A stretch of DNA of 40,408 nucleotides from Methanobacteriota archaeon (GCA_012519255.1 JAAYQQ010000116.1:1-40408); one strand, 5' to 3'. Positions 18,923 through 38,907 are shown, numbered from the stretch's first letter. Numbers and translations are program-made. The notes: generated by a model not told the origin, from the sequence alone.

Positions 18923-19246
18923 ATGGTAGAAGTAAGCGCTGAGGCAGTCAATTTCATCAACGACCTGCTCGAGAAGAACTCCAAGAAGGGCTTCGGGATC
19001 CGTATCTACCTGGCGGGCATGGGCTGTTCCGGCCCTCAGTTCGGGATGGCGTTCCAAGAGGAGAAGAAAGAAGGGGATAACGAGCAGAAAGCCGATGGAT
19101 TCTCGTTCTATTTCGATGATGAGACCAAAGAAATGCTCGAGGGCTCCACCGTCGACTATATCGAGACCCCAGCCGGGTCTGGGCTTATCGTCAACAATCC
19201 CAACCTAAGGTCTTCCTGCGGCGGTTCCTGCGCGGGTTGCCACTAG
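18923..19246 (+). CDS. HesB/IscA-like iron-sulfur protein
   Basis: A 107-residue protein with the HesB/IscA fold pattern: an N-terminal helix (VEVSAEAVNFINDLLE), a beta strand GIRIYLAGMGCSGPQFGM, FSFYFDDETKEMLEGSTVDY, and a C-terminal cysteine cluster SSCGGSCAGCH. A-type proteins bind Fe-S clusters or iron through one Cys in the middle (here in GMGCSG) and two at the end. Here the tail has three cysteines in C-x3-C-x2-C spacing. It probably carries or delivers Fe-S clusters. A strong TATA box lies at 18874-18883. Two small same-strand genes follow, but the second has its own TATA-like element. Confidence 0.85.
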   Translation: MVEVSAEAVNFINDLLEKNSKKGFGIRIYLAGMGCSGPQFGMAFQEEKKEGDNEQKADGFSFYFDDETKEMLEGSTVDYIETPAGSGLIVNNPNLRSSCGGSCAGCH

Positions 19247-31813: not shown

Positions 31814-33535
31814 CTACTTGCGGCGACGTTTATGCCTCACTCGGACCGCTTCACCCCTTCGGCTGTCCTCCATCTCCGCCCCGGACATTACTGCTACGCC
31901 CACTCCCTCTACCTCTCCGTTGCGTAGCAGCACCGCCTCATCACCCGGCCGCAACCCGGGATCTGCGCCCTGCACACCTACAGCAAAAAGGCTTCCTGAT
32001 AGGTTGAAATCACCCATCTTCACCCATCCCAGGCCGTGATCTCTAAGCTTCTCAGCCCCATCAAGGGTAAGGGACAGCATGCCTCTTTCTGGAGTAAGCA
32101 TGGCTAGTTGGACCTTGCCGCTCATCACCTTTAGGTAAGGATATCTGCCTGTCACTGTGGCGTCATCGAGCAATATGCCAGCATCCTTTCCAAACTGATA
32201 ACGGGCTATGGAACGGAGTGTTTCCACACGATCAATGGCCCGAGGAACCTTATCTATCTCAGAACAGGCTCGCTTTAGCTCGTCCCTTAGCCGATCCAGA
32301 GACGCCCTGCTTGTGGCACTCCCAACCGCAGTGGGGATTGCTTCCACGACCTCAGACACGAATTCGCTCTCTATCCCAAGATGATTAATGATTGTCGAGA
32401 AGCCAAGGCCAGCGGCATGGGCGACCAGTTCCTGCACCATCCCGCGCTCCTCGCAGTCCCAATCACCCGTCACCGGAATATCGTACTGGGCAGCCGGATA
32501 GAATAGTTCAAGCTCCCGAGGCACCGCCCCCAATGGAGAGGTTATGATGAGCTCCTGTACAACACAGGAATTGGGAACAGAAAGCAACACTTCCTCGAAC
32601 ATCCGGTGACTCTTGGAAGTATAGTATGGCTTCTTTGCCGAGCAGGGGAGCAGAAGCAATATCTTCTTATGGGGCGCAGGAGCCCAGCGCTCCATTACTC
32701 GCCTTCTAAATCGCCAAACATCCGGACGGAATAGTGCCTGTTTGGTGTTGGCATAGAAGGCCGGCCCAACTAGCGATGTATGCGCTTCCTGGTGTTGATA
32801 GTGCTCACGGTCGAGAATGCGTAGGGCGGCCACTCCCCAGGGGGTGGCATGAGCACGAGTCTCCACAAGCTCTCGGAGACGGCCGATCTTGATCATGTGA
32901 CGGATTAATTGTAGTTCCTTCCAGGCCGCATCTAGGTTATGCCCCACCGCTTCCTCCGGAGAGGATACCAGCCAAGAAGCTTCATCCGCGCCAAACGAGC
33001 CTTCTGGGAGGAGAACTCGACCCCGTGAACCCTGATAGATCAATAGAGAAGAGTCGAGCAGGTCGACGCCCATGTAGATGAGAAGGGCAAGATTGGATGG
33101 ATCCATGATGCCAGGAGCATAGATCAGCCGATTGTAGCCCACCGCGCGGCGCAGTGATACTATCGCATCTACGAATCCTCGGGCATCCCGCCAGAACTCG
33201 AAGGCGTTGCTCAGTACAAAGACCTCTTCCGGCCGGGAGCGCAGGTCAGATGGTGACCCTCTCACGATGATGGCGCCAGAGGCATCCTCCCAGGAGGATT
33301 CCCCCCTCTGGTAGGACAATGGTGGATTGATTCCTTCCGGCATAATGAATGCCGTTTTACCATCGATTAGCGCGTGAAGGCCGCCTTCCTGCCGGACCAG
33401 GGTGGACTCGGCATAGGGAGGGGCTGGGTGAAGGGTAGAAGAGTAGAATAGAATATTTGGAAGCATGACCCTGGAGCCCTCAAACGTCCATTGGACGGTC
33501 CGGGCAAGGCCAGCACGGTCTGTGACCTCGAGCAT
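31814..33535 (-). CDS. arcS: Archaeosine synthase ArcS (TgtA2)
   Basis: ArcS acts after TgtA in making archaeosine at position 15 of archaeal tRNAs; it is a paralogue of the tRNA-guanine transglycosylase. The hallmark LLLPCSAKKPYYTSKSH, containing the catalytic-type cysteine, lies around residues 295-312. The N-terminal part keeps the TGT-like barrel remnant (YNRLIYAPGIMDPSNLALLI). The C-terminus (about 490-573) is a PUA RNA-binding domain (GDFNLSGSLFAVGVQGADPG). The 573-residue length is normal. Start ATG 33535 follows the DsrF-like gene by 48 bases. A TATA-like stretch at about 33553-33566 could give a leaderless mRNA of its own. Confidence 0.92.
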   Translation of the reverse strand: MLEVTDRAGLARTVQWTFEGSRVMLPNILFYSSTLHPAPPYAESTLVRQEGGLHALIDGKTAFIMPEGINPPLSYQRGESSWEDASGAIIVRGSPSDLRSRPEEVFVLSNAFEFWRDARGFVDAIVSLRRAVGYNRLIYAPGIMDPSNLALLIYMGVDLLDSSLLIYQGSRGRVLLPEGSFGADEASWLVSSPEEAVGHNLDAAWKELQLIRHMIKIGRLRELVETRAHATPWGVAALRILDREHYQHQEAHTSLVGPAFYANTKQALFRPDVWRFRRRVMERWAPAPHKKILLLLPCSAKKPYYTSKSHRMFEEVLLSVPNSCVVQELIITSPLGAVPRELELFYPAAQYDIPVTGDWDCEERGMVQELVAHAAGLGFSTIINHLGIESEFVSEVVEAIPTAVGSATSRASLDRLRDELKRACSEIDKVPRAIDRVETLRSIARYQFGKDAGILLDDATVTGRYPYLKVMSGKVQLAMLTPERGMLSLTLDGAEKLRDHGLGWVKMGDFNLSGSLFAVGVQGADPGLRPGDEAVLLRNGEVEGVGVAVMSGAEMEDSRRGEAVRVRHKRRRK

Positions 33536-33583
33536 ATCATGGCCATACCAATAAAGGTAATAAAAGGATATGGAAAGTGACCT

Positions 33584-33943
33584 TCAGAAAGTGGTCACGA
33601 GCTGATGCTGGGCAATGATATCTCGCGCCTCTGCCCAGGAGATCATATTCACATCCTCCAGGATATCGATATTCTCAACCCTGGCATGGAGGTCCTCTTC
33701 CACACAATAGACAGACGCCCCCATATCCAGAAGGTCCTGGAGAGCCTCGAGATTGGACGGCATGCCCAGAGCTCCTGGCCCCTGATCAGCCACTGCATTC
33801 AGTGTGCCATCCCCAATGAGCATGACCGAGGCCTGCGGCACCAGGCCACTGACCAGGACGCCGAGGGCCAATCTCATACCTGCAAAGGCATCCTCGCCCC
33901 CATATGGTTGCTTGGAGATTAATGTGAGAAGACTGTTAGCCAT
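33584..33943 (-). CDS. DsrF/TusC-like sulfur-relay protein
   Basis: A 119-residue DsrE-fold protein. It has the family's opening strand and loop (LLTLISKQPYGGEDAFAGMRLAL), a central strand ASVMLIGDGTLNAV, and GASVYCVEEDLHARVEN with a single cysteine. It matches the DsrF/TusC subfamily, a partner in the heterohexameric DsrEFH/TusBCD complex that passes persulfide sulfur. The gene is last of the sulfur cluster, four bases after the DsrE-like gene. Assignment to F/C rather than another DsrE paralogue is by position and length, so moderate. Confidence 0.75.
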   Translation of the reverse strand: MANSLLTLISKQPYGGEDAFAGMRLALGVLVSGLVPQASVMLIGDGTLNAVADQGPGALGMPSNLEALQDLLDMGASVYCVEEDLHARVENIDILEDVNMISWAEARDIIAQHQLVTTF

Positions 33944-33947
33944 CTTA

Positions 33948-34304
33948 TCACCTCGCCAGGGTTACCATGCGGTCGCTCTCCGACACAAACCGAGAGAGGT
34001 CATTGGTGATGCTTCCGATCACGGTTCCCTTTATCTCTTCCCCCCGCTTGATGCCGCGGGCGCTGGTACATGTGCTACATACTATTACTTCAGCCCCGTG
34101 GGCGACCAGCTCGGCGGTTAGCTCACCCACATTGGGGAAGCGCTTGGGGTCCTGCCCTTCCTTGATCAAAGTGACCCCCTCTCCGTAACCGAAGATCTTG
34201 ACATTATGGCCCTTGTCCAAGGCGGCTTTGGCCAGCTTGACTGCCACGTTGGTATCCATGTTCATCATGGTGCCTGAACGTATCTGTATGGTGAGAGTTC
34301 CCAT
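33948..34304 (-). CDS. DsrE/TusD-like sulfur-relay protein
   Basis: This 118-residue protein has the DsrE fold: TLTIQIRSGTMMNMDTNVAV, then GHNVKIFGYGEGV, and the cysteine loop HGAEVIVCSTCTSARG. The C-x2-C in this loop includes the position of the sulfur-carrying cysteine of DsrE/TusD. Expected role: accept persulfide from TusA and pass it on. The start ATG 34304 is 10 bases after the DsrH-like gene's stop. Confidence 0.78.
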   Translation of the reverse strand: MGTLTIQIRSGTMMNMDTNVAVKLAKAALDKGHNVKIFGYGEGVTLIKEGQDPKRFPNVGELTAELVAHGAEVIVCSTCTSARGIKRGEEIKGTVIGSITNDLSRFVSESDRMVTLAR

Positions 34305-34314
34305 TTTTATCCAC

Positions 34315-34617
34315 TCATAGTGTTATGGTCAGGTCGTAGTCCTGCATTATCAGATCAACCGCCTGCGGATAGTCGATCTCCTGAAATTCCGGACACATCT
34401 TCCCCTTGAAGCCACGAGCCTCTAGGTCGTCGCTCATCACATAGATCTCATCTGCCACGTCCATCAACTCCTCCCCCTTCTCTCTACAGACTGAAAAGAG
34501 AGTGGCATCCTGGAAAAGGAGAATTCCCACTCTGTCATCCCCTCCCAGGGCAGCCAGCGCATCTAGACTTCGATACTCGTATGGCGATTTTAACAGTATG
34601 AATAATTTAGAAGGCAA
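34315..34617 (-). CDS. DsrH/TusB-like sulfur-relay protein
   Basis: A 100-residue protein starting KLFILLKSPYE, as in DsrH/TusB, with GILLFQDATLFSV, EIYVMSDDLEARG and a C-terminal DYPQAVDLIMQDYDLTITL, the helix and strand that close the domain in this subfamily. Two cysteines (SVCREKG and GKMCPEF) are present. It would be the third subunit of the DsrEFH-type complex. Start ATG 34617 follows the DsrE2-like gene by 12 bases. Confidence 0.75.
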   Translation of the reverse strand: MPSKLFILLKSPYEYRSLDALAALGGDDRVGILLFQDATLFSVCREKGEELMDVADEIYVMSDDLEARGFKGKMCPEFQEIDYPQAVDLIMQDYDLTITL

Positions 34618-34629
34618 CTTAAGTCCACC

Positions 34630-35040
34630 TCAGCCGATGAAGTACTGCATATCAGTGTCTGCAGCAATGTTGAGGAAACCAGAAGCTCCCAACACCTTTA
34701 CTCCTTCGCACATAACCTCTAGTGGCATATTCATCAGGGCCATGGTAGTGCTGCAGGCATAAAGATTAACTCCCAGATCCCTGGCAGTATTGAGCTGCTC
34801 GGCAAAGTTCTCCACTCCTCCCCTGGCCATCTTCTTGGCGAACATGCCTGTGAACAAACGATACATACCTGGCAACTTGGGCTTCGCTCCCTTCTTGAGA
34901 AGGTTAAGTCCAAAGAACGTGAAGAATATATGAACCTCCATTCCCATGGCAGCAGCGGTGTTGCCGATGAACATTGCCATCATGCCCTTATCAAAAGTGC
35001 CTTCCGACACAACGATTGCTAGCTTTTTTGTTTCATCCAT
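34630..35040 (-). CDS. DsrE2-like (DsrE/F/DrsH superfamily) protein
   Basis: The 136-residue protein begins KKLAIVVSEGTFDKGMMAMF and has MGMEVHIFFTFFGLNLL, FAKKMARGGVENFAEQL and GVNLYACSTTMALMNMPLE, the pattern of DsrE2-type peroxiredoxin-like sulfur proteins. The cysteine in YACSTTM is the conserved one. Members often sit beside TusA and rhodanese genes and accept sulfur from TusA. The hydrophobic segments (FFTFFGLNLL and FLNIA) are short and need not span a membrane. The gene lies 101 bases from tusA on the same strand. Confidence 0.8.
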   Translation of the reverse strand: MDETKKLAIVVSEGTFDKGMMAMFIGNTAAAMGMEVHIFFTFFGLNLLKKGAKPKLPGMYRLFTGMFAKKMARGGVENFAEQLNTARDLGVNLYACSTTMALMNMPLEVMCEGVKVLGASGFLNIAADTDMQYFIG

Positions 35041-35141
35041 TTGAACCGGCCTCCTGCGTCTTGGTGACTTGCGTCCCTATCCTGGCATTTTGTCGAGCGC
35101 CCTCCCGATGATGGCATCATAGTTCTGCCGCTCTCTGCACA

Positions 35142-35366
35142 TCATTTTAGCTTCCTGATCCGATAGGAGAATACACCTCCGGACTCCTTGGCCTCGACGA
35201 GCTGATTGCCTGTCCTCTGACACCATGACGGGACATCTTCCCTGGAGCCGACGTCATCAGAGAGAAGTTCCAGCTCATCGCCGACCTTCATCGTCCTCAT
35301 CTTCTTTGCCAGTTGCACTATCGGCATAGGACACATCATGCCCTTGCAATCCAGTACTTCTACCAT
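35142..35366 (-). CDS. tusA: TusA-like sulfur carrier protein
   Basis: The 74-residue protein has the TusA signature DCKGMMCPMPIVQLAKKM, where the Cys of CPxP carries persulfide sulfur. It also has VGDELELLSDD and a C-terminal SYRIRKL strand. TusA receives sulfur from a cysteine desulfurase and hands it to DsrE-type proteins, for example for thiolation of tRNA or for cofactor synthesis. Start ATG 35366 is preferred because the protein then opens MVEVLDCKG as in the family. A GTG eight codons upstream is inside the operator palindrome. First gene of the cluster, divergent from the HTH regulator. Confidence 0.9.
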   Translation of the reverse strand: MVEVLDCKGMMCPMPIVQLAKKMRTMKVGDELELLSDDVGSREDVPSWCQRTGNQLVEAKESGGVFSYRIRKLK

Positions 35367-35384
35367 ACTCCCACTTCCTCGGTT

Positions 35385-35412
35385 ATGCACGGTTGTGCAT
35401 TAATTATATATA
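35385..35412 (-). promoter_or_regulatory. Promoter and inverted repeat upstream of the tusA cluster
   Basis: ATGCAC-GGTT-GTGCAT (35385-35400) is a perfect 6-bp inverted repeat. Immediately next to it lies TTATATATAA-type TATA sequence (about 35401-35412) reading toward tusA. The repeat would overlap the transcription start of the cluster, so it may bind a repressor, perhaps the divergent HTH protein. Confidence 0.5.
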
Positions 35413-35420
35413 ACCGCTAC

Positions 35421-35452
35421 CTTATAATACTTATCTATAGGCGCCTAGGCGC
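35421..35452 (+). promoter_or_regulatory. Promoter and palindrome upstream of the HTH regulator
   Basis: CTTATAATAC (35421-35430) is a TATA box for the regulator gene. GCGCCTAGGCGC (35441-35452) is a perfect 12-base palindrome covering the expected initiation site (35447-35456). It is placed for autoregulation. Confidence 0.55.
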
Positions 35453-35472
35453 ATAAGCGCGAGGGGAGCGGA

Positions 35473-35832
35473 ATGCGGACTCAAGTGTCATTCACTAACA
35501 TATCCAACTGTAAAGATATTGTTCAGTGCGCCTTCTCATTAAATGATTTTGAGATTGAGGTATATAAGGGGACTCTTGCCCACGGCCCAATAAGGGCGGA
35601 TGATCTGGCGGATAAAATGGGGCGGGACCGCTCCACAGTGTATAGGGCACTGCAGCGTCTGCTCACTTGCGGGATGTGTTATCGAGAGACTCGCTCCCTA
35701 CGCAAAGGCGGATATTATCATGTGTACATGAGCATCAGCAAAGAGGAACTACGAAAGAAATTGATATCATGCGTGGAGGAATGGAATATGCGTATGCAGA
35801 AGGCCCTCTCCCATTTTGATGAAGATATCTGA
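35473..35832 (+). CDS. Cysteine-rich TrmB-like winged-helix regulator
   Basis: A 119-residue DNA-binding protein with a winged helix-turn-helix: LSLNDFEIEVYKGTL-type first helix (here FSLNDFEIEVYKGTL), GPIRADDLADKMGRDRSTVYRAL as the HTH with recognition helix, then wing GYYHVYMSISKEELRK. The order resembles TrmB-type archaeal regulators but without their sugar-binding domain. It has five cysteines, including C-x2-C (TCGMCYR) just behind the recognition helix. Redox or sulfur sensing is possible (inference). Start ATG 35473 has GAGGGGAG at 35461-35468. It is divergent from the sulfur cluster and probably regulates it. Confidence 0.82.
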   Translation: MRTQVSFTNISNCKDIVQCAFSLNDFEIEVYKGTLAHGPIRADDLADKMGRDRSTVYRALQRLLTCGMCYRETRSLRKGGYYHVYMSISKEELRKKLISCVEEWNMRMQKALSHFDEDI

Positions 35833-35923: not shown

Positions 35924-36853
35924 ATGAGCTTAAAAGGCAAAGACGTGGTCTCGATCCGGGACCTCTCTCGGGAACAGATTGAACAGGTGATGGACCTAGC
36001 GCAGAAGCTAGTACCATATGCCAAGGGCGAGATGACTACCAAGGCTATGGAGGGGAAGATCATGGGAAACCTATTCTTCGAACCATCCACCCGGACAAGG
36101 CTTTCCTTCGAGAGCGCCATGGTTCGCCTGGGTGGAAGATTCGTTGAGATCGCCCACCCCACAAGTTCTTCAGTGGTCAAGGGCGAGACCCTTGCTGACA
36201 CCGTACGCATGGTAGAAGGCTACGCAGATGCAATCGTGTTGCGGCACCCTCACGAAGGAGCGGCCAGACTCGCCGCGAAATATAGCTCAAAACCGGTCAT
36301 CAATGCCGGGGACGGAGCAGGCCAGCATCCTACCCAGACGCTCCTGGATATGTTCACTATCCAGCAAGAGGCGGGTGCCATCGCCGGGAAGAATGTCGTC
36401 ATTGTGGGCGATCTTAAGTACGGTCGCACAGCACATTCCTTGGCCGAAGCTCTGGGCATGTTCGGCGCGGAGCTCACTTTCGTTGCGCCACCGCTCCTGC
36501 AAATGCCTAAGGAGACCCTCAATCAACTCGAGAGTGCTGGCATCAAGCCCAAATTATTCTCTGATCTCAAAGATGTCATATCCGAGGCAGATGTATTGTA
36601 TGTTACAAGGATCCAAAGGGAACGCTTTCCCGATCCATCAGAGTACCTAAAAGTGGCTGGTTCCTACCGCGTGGACAATGCTCTACTTCACGAGGCCAAG
36701 AAAGACCTTGTGATCATGCACCCCCTTCCAAGGGTCGATGAGATCGCCCCAGAGGTGGACTATACGGAGAATGCCAGATACTTCCAGCAGGCGTTCAATG
36801 GCGTTCCCGTCCGAATGGCGCTGATCATGCTAGTCCTGGGAGGTGAGCTGTAA
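35924..36853 (+). CDS. pyrB: Aspartate carbamoyltransferase catalytic subunit
   Basis: PyrB condenses carbamoyl phosphate with aspartate in the first committed step of pyrimidine synthesis. The carbamoyl-phosphate site is FFEPSTRTRLSFESAM (around residues 48-62), with HPTS-type, RHPHEG and GDGAGQHPTQTLLD segments, and the aspartate-binding HPLPRVDEI near the C-terminus. The 309 residues match archaeal catalytic subunits. pyrI starts immediately after the stop (TAA then ATG), so both subunits come from one mRNA, making the regulated (PyrB)6(PyrI)6 enzyme. Confidence 0.97.
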   Translation: MSLKGKDVVSIRDLSREQIEQVMDLAQKLVPYAKGEMTTKAMEGKIMGNLFFEPSTRTRLSFESAMVRLGGRFVEIAHPTSSSVVKGETLADTVRMVEGYADAIVLRHPHEGAARLAAKYSSKPVINAGDGAGQHPTQTLLDMFTIQQEAGAIAGKNVVIVGDLKYGRTAHSLAEALGMFGAELTFVAPPLLQMPKETLNQLESAGIKPKLFSDLKDVISEADVLYVTRIQRERFPDPSEYLKVAGSYRVDNALLHEAKKDLVIMHPLPRVDEIAPEVDYTENARYFQQAFNGVPVRMALIMLVLGGEL

Positions 36854-37309
36854 ATGAAGGATTTTCGCGTCACACCCATCCGCAACGGTACTGTTATAGA
36901 TCATATCAACTGCGGACGAGCGCTCAAGGTGCTGCGCATCATCGGCATTACCGAGAGTGTGCGATCGACCGTGTCCATTCTCCTTCATGTGCCCTCGAAG
37001 AAGGATGGTTGGAAGGATGTCATTAAGATAGAAGATAGAGAGCTCGATTCCAGAGAAGTGGATAAGATATCACTTATCGCTCCCCGGGCAACTATCAATA
37101 TCATACGCGACTTTAATGTCGCTCAGAAAACCCAGGTCAAGATGCCTGAGATAGTCAAGGGCATAGTGCGATGCGGGAACCCCAATTGCATCACCAACAT
37201 GAACGAACCCGTCGAGACGGAATTTGTGGTGGAAGCGAAGAAGCCATTGGTGCTGCGTTGCCTATATTGTGACCGCATCCAGGAAGATGTGGCCGATCGA
37301 TTGATCTGA
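36854..37309 (+). CDS. pyrI: Aspartate carbamoyltransferase regulatory subunit
   Basis: PyrI binds nucleotide effectors and holds the catalytic trimers together. The N-terminal nucleotide domain has RVTPIRNGTVIDHI and LISLIAPRATIN-like segments (here KISLIAPRATIN). The C-terminal zinc domain has four cysteines, in CGNPNC and RCLYCD, that bind the structural zinc. The length of 151 residues is standard. ATG 36854 directly follows the pyrB stop codon. Confidence 0.97.
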   Translation: MKDFRVTPIRNGTVIDHINCGRALKVLRIIGITESVRSTVSILLHVPSKKDGWKDVIKIEDRELDSREVDKISLIAPRATINIIRDFNVAQKTQVKMPEIVKGIVRCGNPNCITNMNEPVETEFVVEAKKPLVLRCLYCDRIQEDVADRLI

Positions 37310-38041: not shown

Positions 38042-38578
38042 ATGACGCGAGTGTATATCCTCACCGGGATGCCAGGGGCAGGTAAGGAAGAGTTTGTCAA
38101 AGTGGCCCAGGAGAATGGATATAAAGTTGTGAGGATGGGCGACGTTGTCAGGGAAGAAGCACCCCGCCGGGGAATCGCCATGTCCGATCAGGATGTGGGC
38201 GGTTTCGCCTCATCGGAACGTAAGAAGCATGGGCCAGGAATCTGGGCGACTCGCTGCATTCCCTTGATCGGAGATGATGATACTGTCATTGACGGCTCCC
38301 GCAGCACCTTCGAATTCAACGTGTTTCGGAAGACGCTGGGCGATAAGGTACGTCTGGTGGCCATCCATGCTTCCCCCTCTCTGCGTTTCGAGCGATTGAA
38401 GCGACGCAACCGCTTCGATGCCCCTCGGACAGAAGAGGAGTTTCGGCAAAGGGACGAACGAGGGAAGGGATGGGGATTGGGCGATCTTATAGTCAAGGCC
38501 GAACTGATAATTATTAACGAAGGAACTCTTGAGGAGTTTTACGATAAGGTAAGGGAGGTGCTGAACGAAGCATGGTGA
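38042..38578 (+). CDS. UPF0200-family nucleotide kinase (adenylate-kinase-like)
   Basis: The 178-residue P-loop protein begins MTRVYILTGMPGAGKEEF. The Walker A is GMPGAGK (residues 9-15) followed by E rather than S/T, a variation tolerated in this family. The NMP-binding part includes RMGDVVREEAPRRG. LVAIHASPSLRFERLKRR and RDERGKGWGLGDLI form the lid and the arginine-rich region. The archaeal UPF0200 family is related to adenylate and dephospho-CoA kinases; its substrate is not settled. In some archaea this kinase is fused to a second domain (UPF0201); here it ends, and the next gene overlaps it by seven bases. Confidence 0.85.
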   Translation: MTRVYILTGMPGAGKEEFVKVAQENGYKVVRMGDVVREEAPRRGIAMSDQDVGGFASSERKKHGPGIWATRCIPLIGDDDTVIDGSRSTFEFNVFRKTLGDKVRLVAIHASPSLRFERLKRRNRFDAPRTEEEFRQRDERGKGWGLGDLIVKAELIIINEGTLEEFYDKVREVLNEAW

Positions 38579-38907
38579 ACTTCAAGATAATAGGAATCTG
38601 TAAGCAAGAAGCCCTCTCAATAGTGCCCACTGAAGATGTCAGATATGATCTAGAGAGAATGACCGAACTTCTATCCCAGGCCGGGCATGACGTCAATGAT
38701 CAAGGCCTTATGGTGACGGTCTCCAGCAATGGTCACACCGTGACTATCTACACCAACGGCCGTATGCTCATAACTGGGGTTAGCACCAAGGAAGAAGCGG
38801 CCCAAATCGCCACCTCATTATACGACACTGCGGAACCTTCCCGAGAATCGGTCGCAGACAGAGCGCAACCACCTTTGGATTATTCCGACATGGATGAATC
38901 CTTTTGA
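38572..38907 (+). CDS. Small protein resembling one half of TATA-binding protein
   Basis: The 111-residue protein has an alpha/beta pattern of strand (NFKIIGICK), helix (DVRYDLERMTELLSQ), three strands, and a closing helix (EEAAQIATSLYD). The segment TVTIYTNGRMLITGVSTKEEA looks like the strand-turn-strand of a TBP repeat (the canonical form has IFRSGKM and TGAKSEEDA). It is therefore probably a single TBP-like domain, about half of TBP, with an acidic tail. Whether it binds DNA is unknown. ATG 38572 overlaps the UPF0200 stop and has GGGAGGTG at 38553-38560, so the two proteins are translationally coupled. Confidence 0.7.
   Translation: MVNFKIIGICKQEALSIVPTEDVRYDLERMTELLSQAGHDVNDQGLMVTVSSNGHTVTIYTNGRMLITGVSTKEEAAQIATSLYDTAEPSRESVADRAQPPLDYSDMDESF

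Follow-up and report, generated by a model that had tools for sequence, protein, structure and literature searches.

The DNA analysed here (the window; 40,408 nucleotides, GCA_012519255.1 JAAYQQ010000116.1:1-40408) comes from a 1.75 Mb archaeal genome in 149 contigs, a member of the methanogen order Methanomassiliicoccales. Its minus strand carries the gene series tusA-dsrE2-dsrH-dsrE-dsrF-arcS, the first five of which we call the module; REG, a regulator gene, is divergent to tusA, with pyrB and pyrI on its other side (Table 1). Spacing is 101 nt between tusA and dsrE2, 4-12 nt at the gaps after dsrE2 within the module, and 48 nt between dsrF and arcS. An earlier note on this locus had described five small sulfur-carrier genes, arcS and a divergent regulator as a complete TusA-DsrE2-DsrEFH relay. 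All seven open reading frames (ORFs) lie where it had placed them and were identified by profile search, but the order is H-E-F, not E-F-H, and the relay is complete only in a relative sense: the carriers are present, and DsrC/TusE (PF04358) was found in none of the 41 Methanomassiliicoccales genomes that formed our survey sample (E. coli control positive).

Table 1. Features of the tusA-dsrE2-dsrHEF-arcS locus, in window coordinates
Feature	Position	Strand	Description
tusA	35142..35366	-	TusA-type sulfur carrier, 74 aa; PF01206 E=2.7e-26, 91.6 bits; CPMP Cys
dsrE2-like sulfur carrier	34630..35040	-	PF13686 E=1.2e-28; one invariant Cys, C96
dsrH/tusB-like subunit	34315..34617	-	TIGR03011 (TusB model) 54.9 bits, above cut-off
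dsrE/tusD-like subunit	33948..34304	-	PF02635 E=2.3e-17; invariant CxxC (C76, C79)
dsrF/tusC-like subunit	33584..33943	-	weak assignment
arcS	31814..33535	-	archaeosine synthase alpha subunit; NF040592 E=9.6e-128; neighbour of the module
REG	35473..35832	+	single-domain TrmB/Lrs14/Sta1-type winged-helix regulator; PF01978 E=6.1e-14
pyrB-pyrI	35924..37309	+	syntenic anchor beyond REG, retained where the module is absent
Promoter/operator element CGGTTATATATAATTAATGCACAACCGTGCATAACCG	35380..35416	-	37 bp, conserved; TATA box, 6-bp inverted repeat, AACCG repeats
TTTTATTA box	33558..33565	-	centred ~26 nt upstream of the arcS start

Carrier identities and invariant cysteines

By profile and structure matches, the identities of TusA and DsrH are secure, the best Protein Data Bank (PDB) match of DsrH being DsrH itself (2hy5_C, E=1.1e-10). 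DsrE2, DsrE and DsrF are family members that fall below the curated cut-offs of the characterised bacterial proteins, and the dsrE and dsrF labels rest on weak similarity: DsrE scores 27.9 bits against the TusD model (cut-off 89.25) and DsrF 24.6 bits against the TusC model (cut-off 94.15), while TusC models match 15 of 16 DsrF orthologs, all below cut-off. DsrE2 has PDB relatives in 2qs7, 3pnx and 3mc3, and the PDB matches of DsrF reach E=0.01-0.03 at best. DsrE is as much YchN-like as DsrE-like, its best solved relative being E. coli YchN (1jx7, E=1.2e-8), with DsrE (2hy5_A) at E=2.9e-5. ArcS has the architecture DUF5591 + TGT_C2 + PUA, scores 427 bits against NF040592, slightly under the cut-off of 440, and contains PCSAKKPY, an instance of the ArcS motif PC-X3-KPY.

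Candidate sulfur-carrying cysteines are strictly kept across the order: the CPxP cysteine of TusA in 24/24 relatives, C96 of DsrE2 in 22/22 sequences, and both C76 and C79 of DsrE in 24/24. DsrH has no conserved cysteine, and a DsrF cysteine occurs in 20 of 26 sequences. This pattern fits relays in which a DsrE-type subunit carries the sulfur. Three loci of the order (L056, L059 and L065, in G040, G022 and G019) have, between tusA and dsrE2, one more DsrE-like gene, which encodes a CxxC motif.

A single-site promoter element and its putative regulator

In all genomes that have REG and in which the region is intact, CGGTTATATATAGTTGTTGCACAACCGTGCAAAACCG or a near copy lies between REG and tusA. 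This nearly invariant 37-bp element, newly recognised here, has a TATA box, AACCG repeats and an inverted repeat, TTGCAC-AACC-GTGCAA; both arms of the inverted repeat are altered together in the window copy, to ATGCAC and GTGCAT, so that symmetry is preserved. We searched the 41 genomes for it, allowing up to 3 mismatches and using the reversed sequence as control. The search returned 28 sites in 26 genomes, 26 of them at tusA (one per genome) and 2 elsewhere, and the reversed control gave 0 sites in the 41 genomes. At the same threshold the element was not found in any surveyed genome lacking the module or REG; one genome, G001, retains REG and has lost both module and element. A wider REG regulon was looked for in the 41 genomes, and the element proved to be essentially confined to tusA. 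The element thus sits at a single divergent promoter and co-occurs with REG and the module, and REG therefore looks dedicated to one promoter. The two sites away from tusA (G010:C7 and G021:C3:148907-148927) have 3 mismatches each.

The same element bears on the start of tusA. We re-assigned the start from GTG 35390 to ATG 35366, which is the more likely position given that 35416-35380 is conserved as non-coding DNA. MHNRAKP was considered as the N-terminus of TusA and rejected, the DNA being conserved even where that frame does not run on into TusA. In several genomes the operator can be read as an in-frame MHNRAKP-like extension (window 35366-35390), so TusA starts in annotations may lie too far upstream.

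Four cysteines of REG (C13, C19, C66 and C100) are invariant across the order, and C13 and C19 persist out to a distant phylum member, G068. The AlphaFold model of REG has a pLDDT of 85, the nearest solved structures are 3r0a, 1sfx and 6cmv (AbfR2 is among the matches), and C19 aligns with a cysteine of Methanosarcina mazei 3r0a. A proven thiol switch is known for a single-domain TrmB-family protein, OxsR, which acts through an essential cysteine in its N-terminal region (PMC9426492). REG shares the single PF01978 winged helix and a conserved cysteine in this region, and by analogy may sense sulfur or redox state.

arcS is a conserved but separable neighbour

An ArcS-related match is present in 41/41 genomes (a long match in 39/41) and the module in 30/41, namely 28 with dsrH plus G024 and G025, whose contigs begin inside the module. 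The module abuts arcS in 28 of these 30, and the remaining two, G013 and G028, end at contig breaks; dsrE2 is missing from the module in G004, G008 and G034. The full order pyrB-REG-module-arcS also exists in G246, an outgroup at class level, and the arrangement is therefore old. Recurring in 28 genomes of the order and in this outgroup, it is not due to chance. In G068, REG is divergent to dsrHEF-tusA, with neither arcS nor pyrB there. Some members carry an insertion between dsrF and arcS, which in L138:6475-7173 is the gene of a DUF116 membrane protein; the gap is also wider in L140, L142 and L151.

In the carriers followed by arcS, the earlier note had seen a hint of a tRNA- or cofactor-directed pathway. 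The adjacency is real and extends well beyond the window's genome, but several observations speak against reading a tRNA-directed pathway from it. The module is absent in 11 of 41 genomes (nine of family f2, G006 and G001), and in module-less genomes arcS lies beside pyrBI at a spacing of 64-105 nt in eight f2 genomes, 91 nt in G006 and 4.2 kb in G023; G001, with REG retained, has a 341-nt spacer. Since arcS stands beside pyrBI without the module, the arcS-pyrBI synteny is independent of it. Module and arcS are apart in six related genomes (G137, G152 and the four behind L146, L148, L152 and L155), by ~242 kb on the single contig of G137 and by lying on different contigs in the other five.

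arcS also appears to have a promoter of its own. The TTTTATTA box is probably the TATA box of a leaderless arcS transcript: an 8-nt A/T-only run occurs at -38..-18 of arcS in 23/26 module genomes vs 5/1696 coding control windows, A/T content in module genomes reaches 92-100% at -29..-24, and the same box precedes arcS in the module-less G001. A scan for bacterial sigma-70 promoters was uninformative, the model being bacterial and the host archaeal. Judged from these sequence features, arcS is probably transcribed separately from the module.

The concatenated module and ArcS give broadly congruent trees, in which some deep nodes are poorly supported; this fits a largely vertical inheritance of the module with losses. 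One gut species departs from this: in G137, ArcS falls among the gut f2 genomes and the module falls with family f1 (supports 0.79-0.95), pointing to a likely horizontal regain of just the five module genes, with arcS and REG not included. The f2 clade is presumably gut-associated, in view of its genome size and of what holds for Methanomethylophilaceae in general.

Partner genes constrain the possible functions

DsrEFH is usually linked to dsrAB, with oxidative dsrAB in 75.9% of type I and reductive dsrAB in 73.9% of type II genomes (PMC13293266), and the module might by this token serve dissimilatory sulfur oxidation or reduction, as in DsrEFH-bearing bacteria and archaea. However, dsrA (TIGR02064) exceeds the cut-off in 0/41 genomes, the window's genome giving no match of any strength, and dsrC is likewise missing from all 41. 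These searches largely refute Dsr-type use, which we regard as very improbable. The earlier note had hinted at a role other than energy metabolism, and here it is well supported: no dsrAB was found. No Hdr-like complex or lipoate-binding protein was seen beside the module, a statement limited to the neighbourhood, as no genome search was made. The partner pattern argues for a non-dissimilatory relay, without naming its acceptor.

A second possibility is that the module feeds thiolated tRNA bases via NcsA/TtuA or ThiI, arcS adjoining it through a shared role in tRNA modification. The carriers do resemble the TusABCD family, the enzymes are at hand, and the adjacency to arcS reaches 28 genomes and the class-level outgroup. 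Yet NcsA/TtuA-type proteins (38/41 genomes) and a two-part ThiI (all genomes) are equally present with or without the module, and no co-variation of the module with tRNA thiolation enzymes was seen in the 41 genomes. Neither TusE nor a true MnmA was seen: PF03054 (PP-loop) matches were weak and partial, falling in the window's genome on an NcsA/TtuA-like ORF (C20) and on the C-terminal half of ThiI (C11), and an MnmA-type acceptor was rejected on this ground. Moreover, in archaea both ThiI and NcsA belong to the Fe-S enzymes, and sulfide can serve M. maripaludis ThiI as sulfur source in vitro (PMC5372739); the known lysine-transfer reaction of ArcS requires no sulfur (PMC11298593). Together with the own promoter of arcS and its separation from the module in six genomes, these points make a tRNA-directed role unlikely, and the step from arcS adjacency to such a role finds no support.

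The two parts of ThiI appear to form separate ORFs throughout the order, an N-terminal ORF of ~290 aa and a PP-loop ORF of ~220 aa at different places (G000:C57:3456-4052 and G000:C115:49741-50286, and likewise in most of the other 40 genomes).

The relay could instead supply Fe-S cluster assembly or a MoaD/ThiS-type carrier. Methanogens have many Fe-S proteins, DsrE2 paralogs adjoin aminotransferase class-V (desulfurase-family) genes in many order members, and the window encodes an IscA-like protein at another place. Against this, the module is not directly linked to suf genes or MoaD, and gut lineages do without it although they still require Fe-S clusters; we consider such a supply role improbable.

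As for donors, cysteine desulfurase-family proteins occur in all 41 genomes, and in related clusters of G058 and G055 their genes stand beside dsrHEF, or beside tusA and dsrE2. In G055, a distant phylum member, locus L196 (C18) comprises a Sulf_transp (YeeE/YedE-type) protein gene, tusA, a cysteine desulfurase-family gene and dsrE2 on the opposite strand. A second dsrE2 paralog directly beside an aminotransferase class-V (cysteine desulfurase-like) gene is seen in many order members (for example G009:C4:279513-280883, G036:C13:8705-10226 and G040:C22:26695-28215), the window's genome not being among them. The IscA/HesB-type Fe-S biosynthesis protein (PF01521) of the window is encoded at 18923-19246 (+), ~12.6 kb from arcS. 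The window's gene at 38572-38907 (+), directly after an AAA/adenylate kinase-like gene, encodes a small protein that weakly matches the TATA-binding-protein domain.

A proposed thiol-regulated relay

The gene content, the invariant cysteines, the missing partners, the element that co-occurs with REG and module, the arcS box and the loss, relocation and regain of the module together lead us to propose that tusA-dsrE2-dsrH-dsrE-dsrF may form a self-contained, accessory, thiol-regulated cytoplasmic relay for protein-bound sulfane sulfur, with arcS as a syntenic neighbour that has its own promoter and is not a member of the pathway. We give this whole reading about an even chance of being right. 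REG would bind the 37-bp element overlapping the tusA promoter and repress both tusA and itself, and oxidation or persulfidation of its invariant cysteines would alter binding as reactive sulfur rises. TusA would accept sulfane sulfur, with a cysteine desulfurase as the probable donor; DsrE-type proteins would carry it as a persulfide on Cys96 of DsrE2 and the CxxC of DsrE; and it would be passed to a biosynthetic or storage acceptor without TusE/DsrC or DsrAB.

Several points weigh against this proposal. It rests on sequence analysis, and cysteine desulfurases, the putative donors, occur in module-less genomes too. REG could be an activator, or could respond to something besides sulfur. The arcS neighbourhood, moreover, has been conserved for long, to class level in G246, so that module and arcS may after all be functionally linked.

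Sulfide is regarded as the immediate sulfur donor in methanogens, some of which have no cysteine desulfurase (PMC5372739). For the question of how methanogens transport activated sulfur, a regulated relay would offer a defined entry point. The proposed relay spans most of one methanogen order, is absent in gut lineages and was apparently re-acquired once; as it has one operator and a regulator rich in cysteines, the signal can be tested directly. The locus also shows the risk of inferring function from neighbourhood conservation: arcS adjoins the module in 28 genomes, yet appears to be transcribed separately.

Relation to known systems

We found no account of the module in Methanomassiliicoccales in the open-licence literature, in line with the earlier note, which knew of no such arrangement. 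Whether the locus constitutes an undescribed inducible persulfide relay of this order, which combines TusA, DsrE2 and DsrEFH-like subunits, is switched by a four-cysteine thiol-sensing REG through a single-site operator and functions in the absence of TusE/DsrC, MnmA and DsrAB, is a more tentative matter; we hold it possible, though somewhat on the doubtful side.

The E. coli TusA-TusBCD-TusE-MnmA relay shares the CPxP cysteine of TusA, a TusB-like subunit above cut-off, the position of the TusD-like catalytic cysteine and a three-subunit tandem. Here, however, the TusD and TusC models score far below cut-off, TusE and MnmA are lacking, and there are an extra DsrE2, the order H-E-F and a dedicated cysteine-rich regulator. 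The Allochromatium vinosum route from DsrEFH, TusA and DsrE2 to DsrC (PMC3397948) uses the same carrier families, and the DsrH of the module finds its best match in 2hy5_C, but the module is without DsrC, DsrAB or other dsr genes, differs in gene order and has a CxxC in DsrE. DsrEFH type II of sulfate reducers is also linked with tusA, but mostly occurs with reductive dsrAB and yeeE, and Methanomassiliicoccales are not mentioned in that account (PMC13293266).

Among archaea, Metallosphaera likewise clusters tusA with dsrE-type genes (TusA-DsrE3A-DsrE2B; PMC4175335), but its cluster adjoins Hdr-like genes, whereas the module has three DsrEFH-like subunits and no such neighbours. Methanococcus maripaludis has a Tus-like pair, TusAD, of unexplained role that is induced on selenium depletion (PMC11097638); it consists of two genes only, with no DsrEFH set reported. 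Finally, OxsR of Haloferax volcanii is, like REG, a single-domain PF01978 regulator with a conserved cysteine in its N-terminal region, but it controls many promoters (PMC9426492), whereas the REG element occurs once per genome at tusA and REG has four invariant cysteines.

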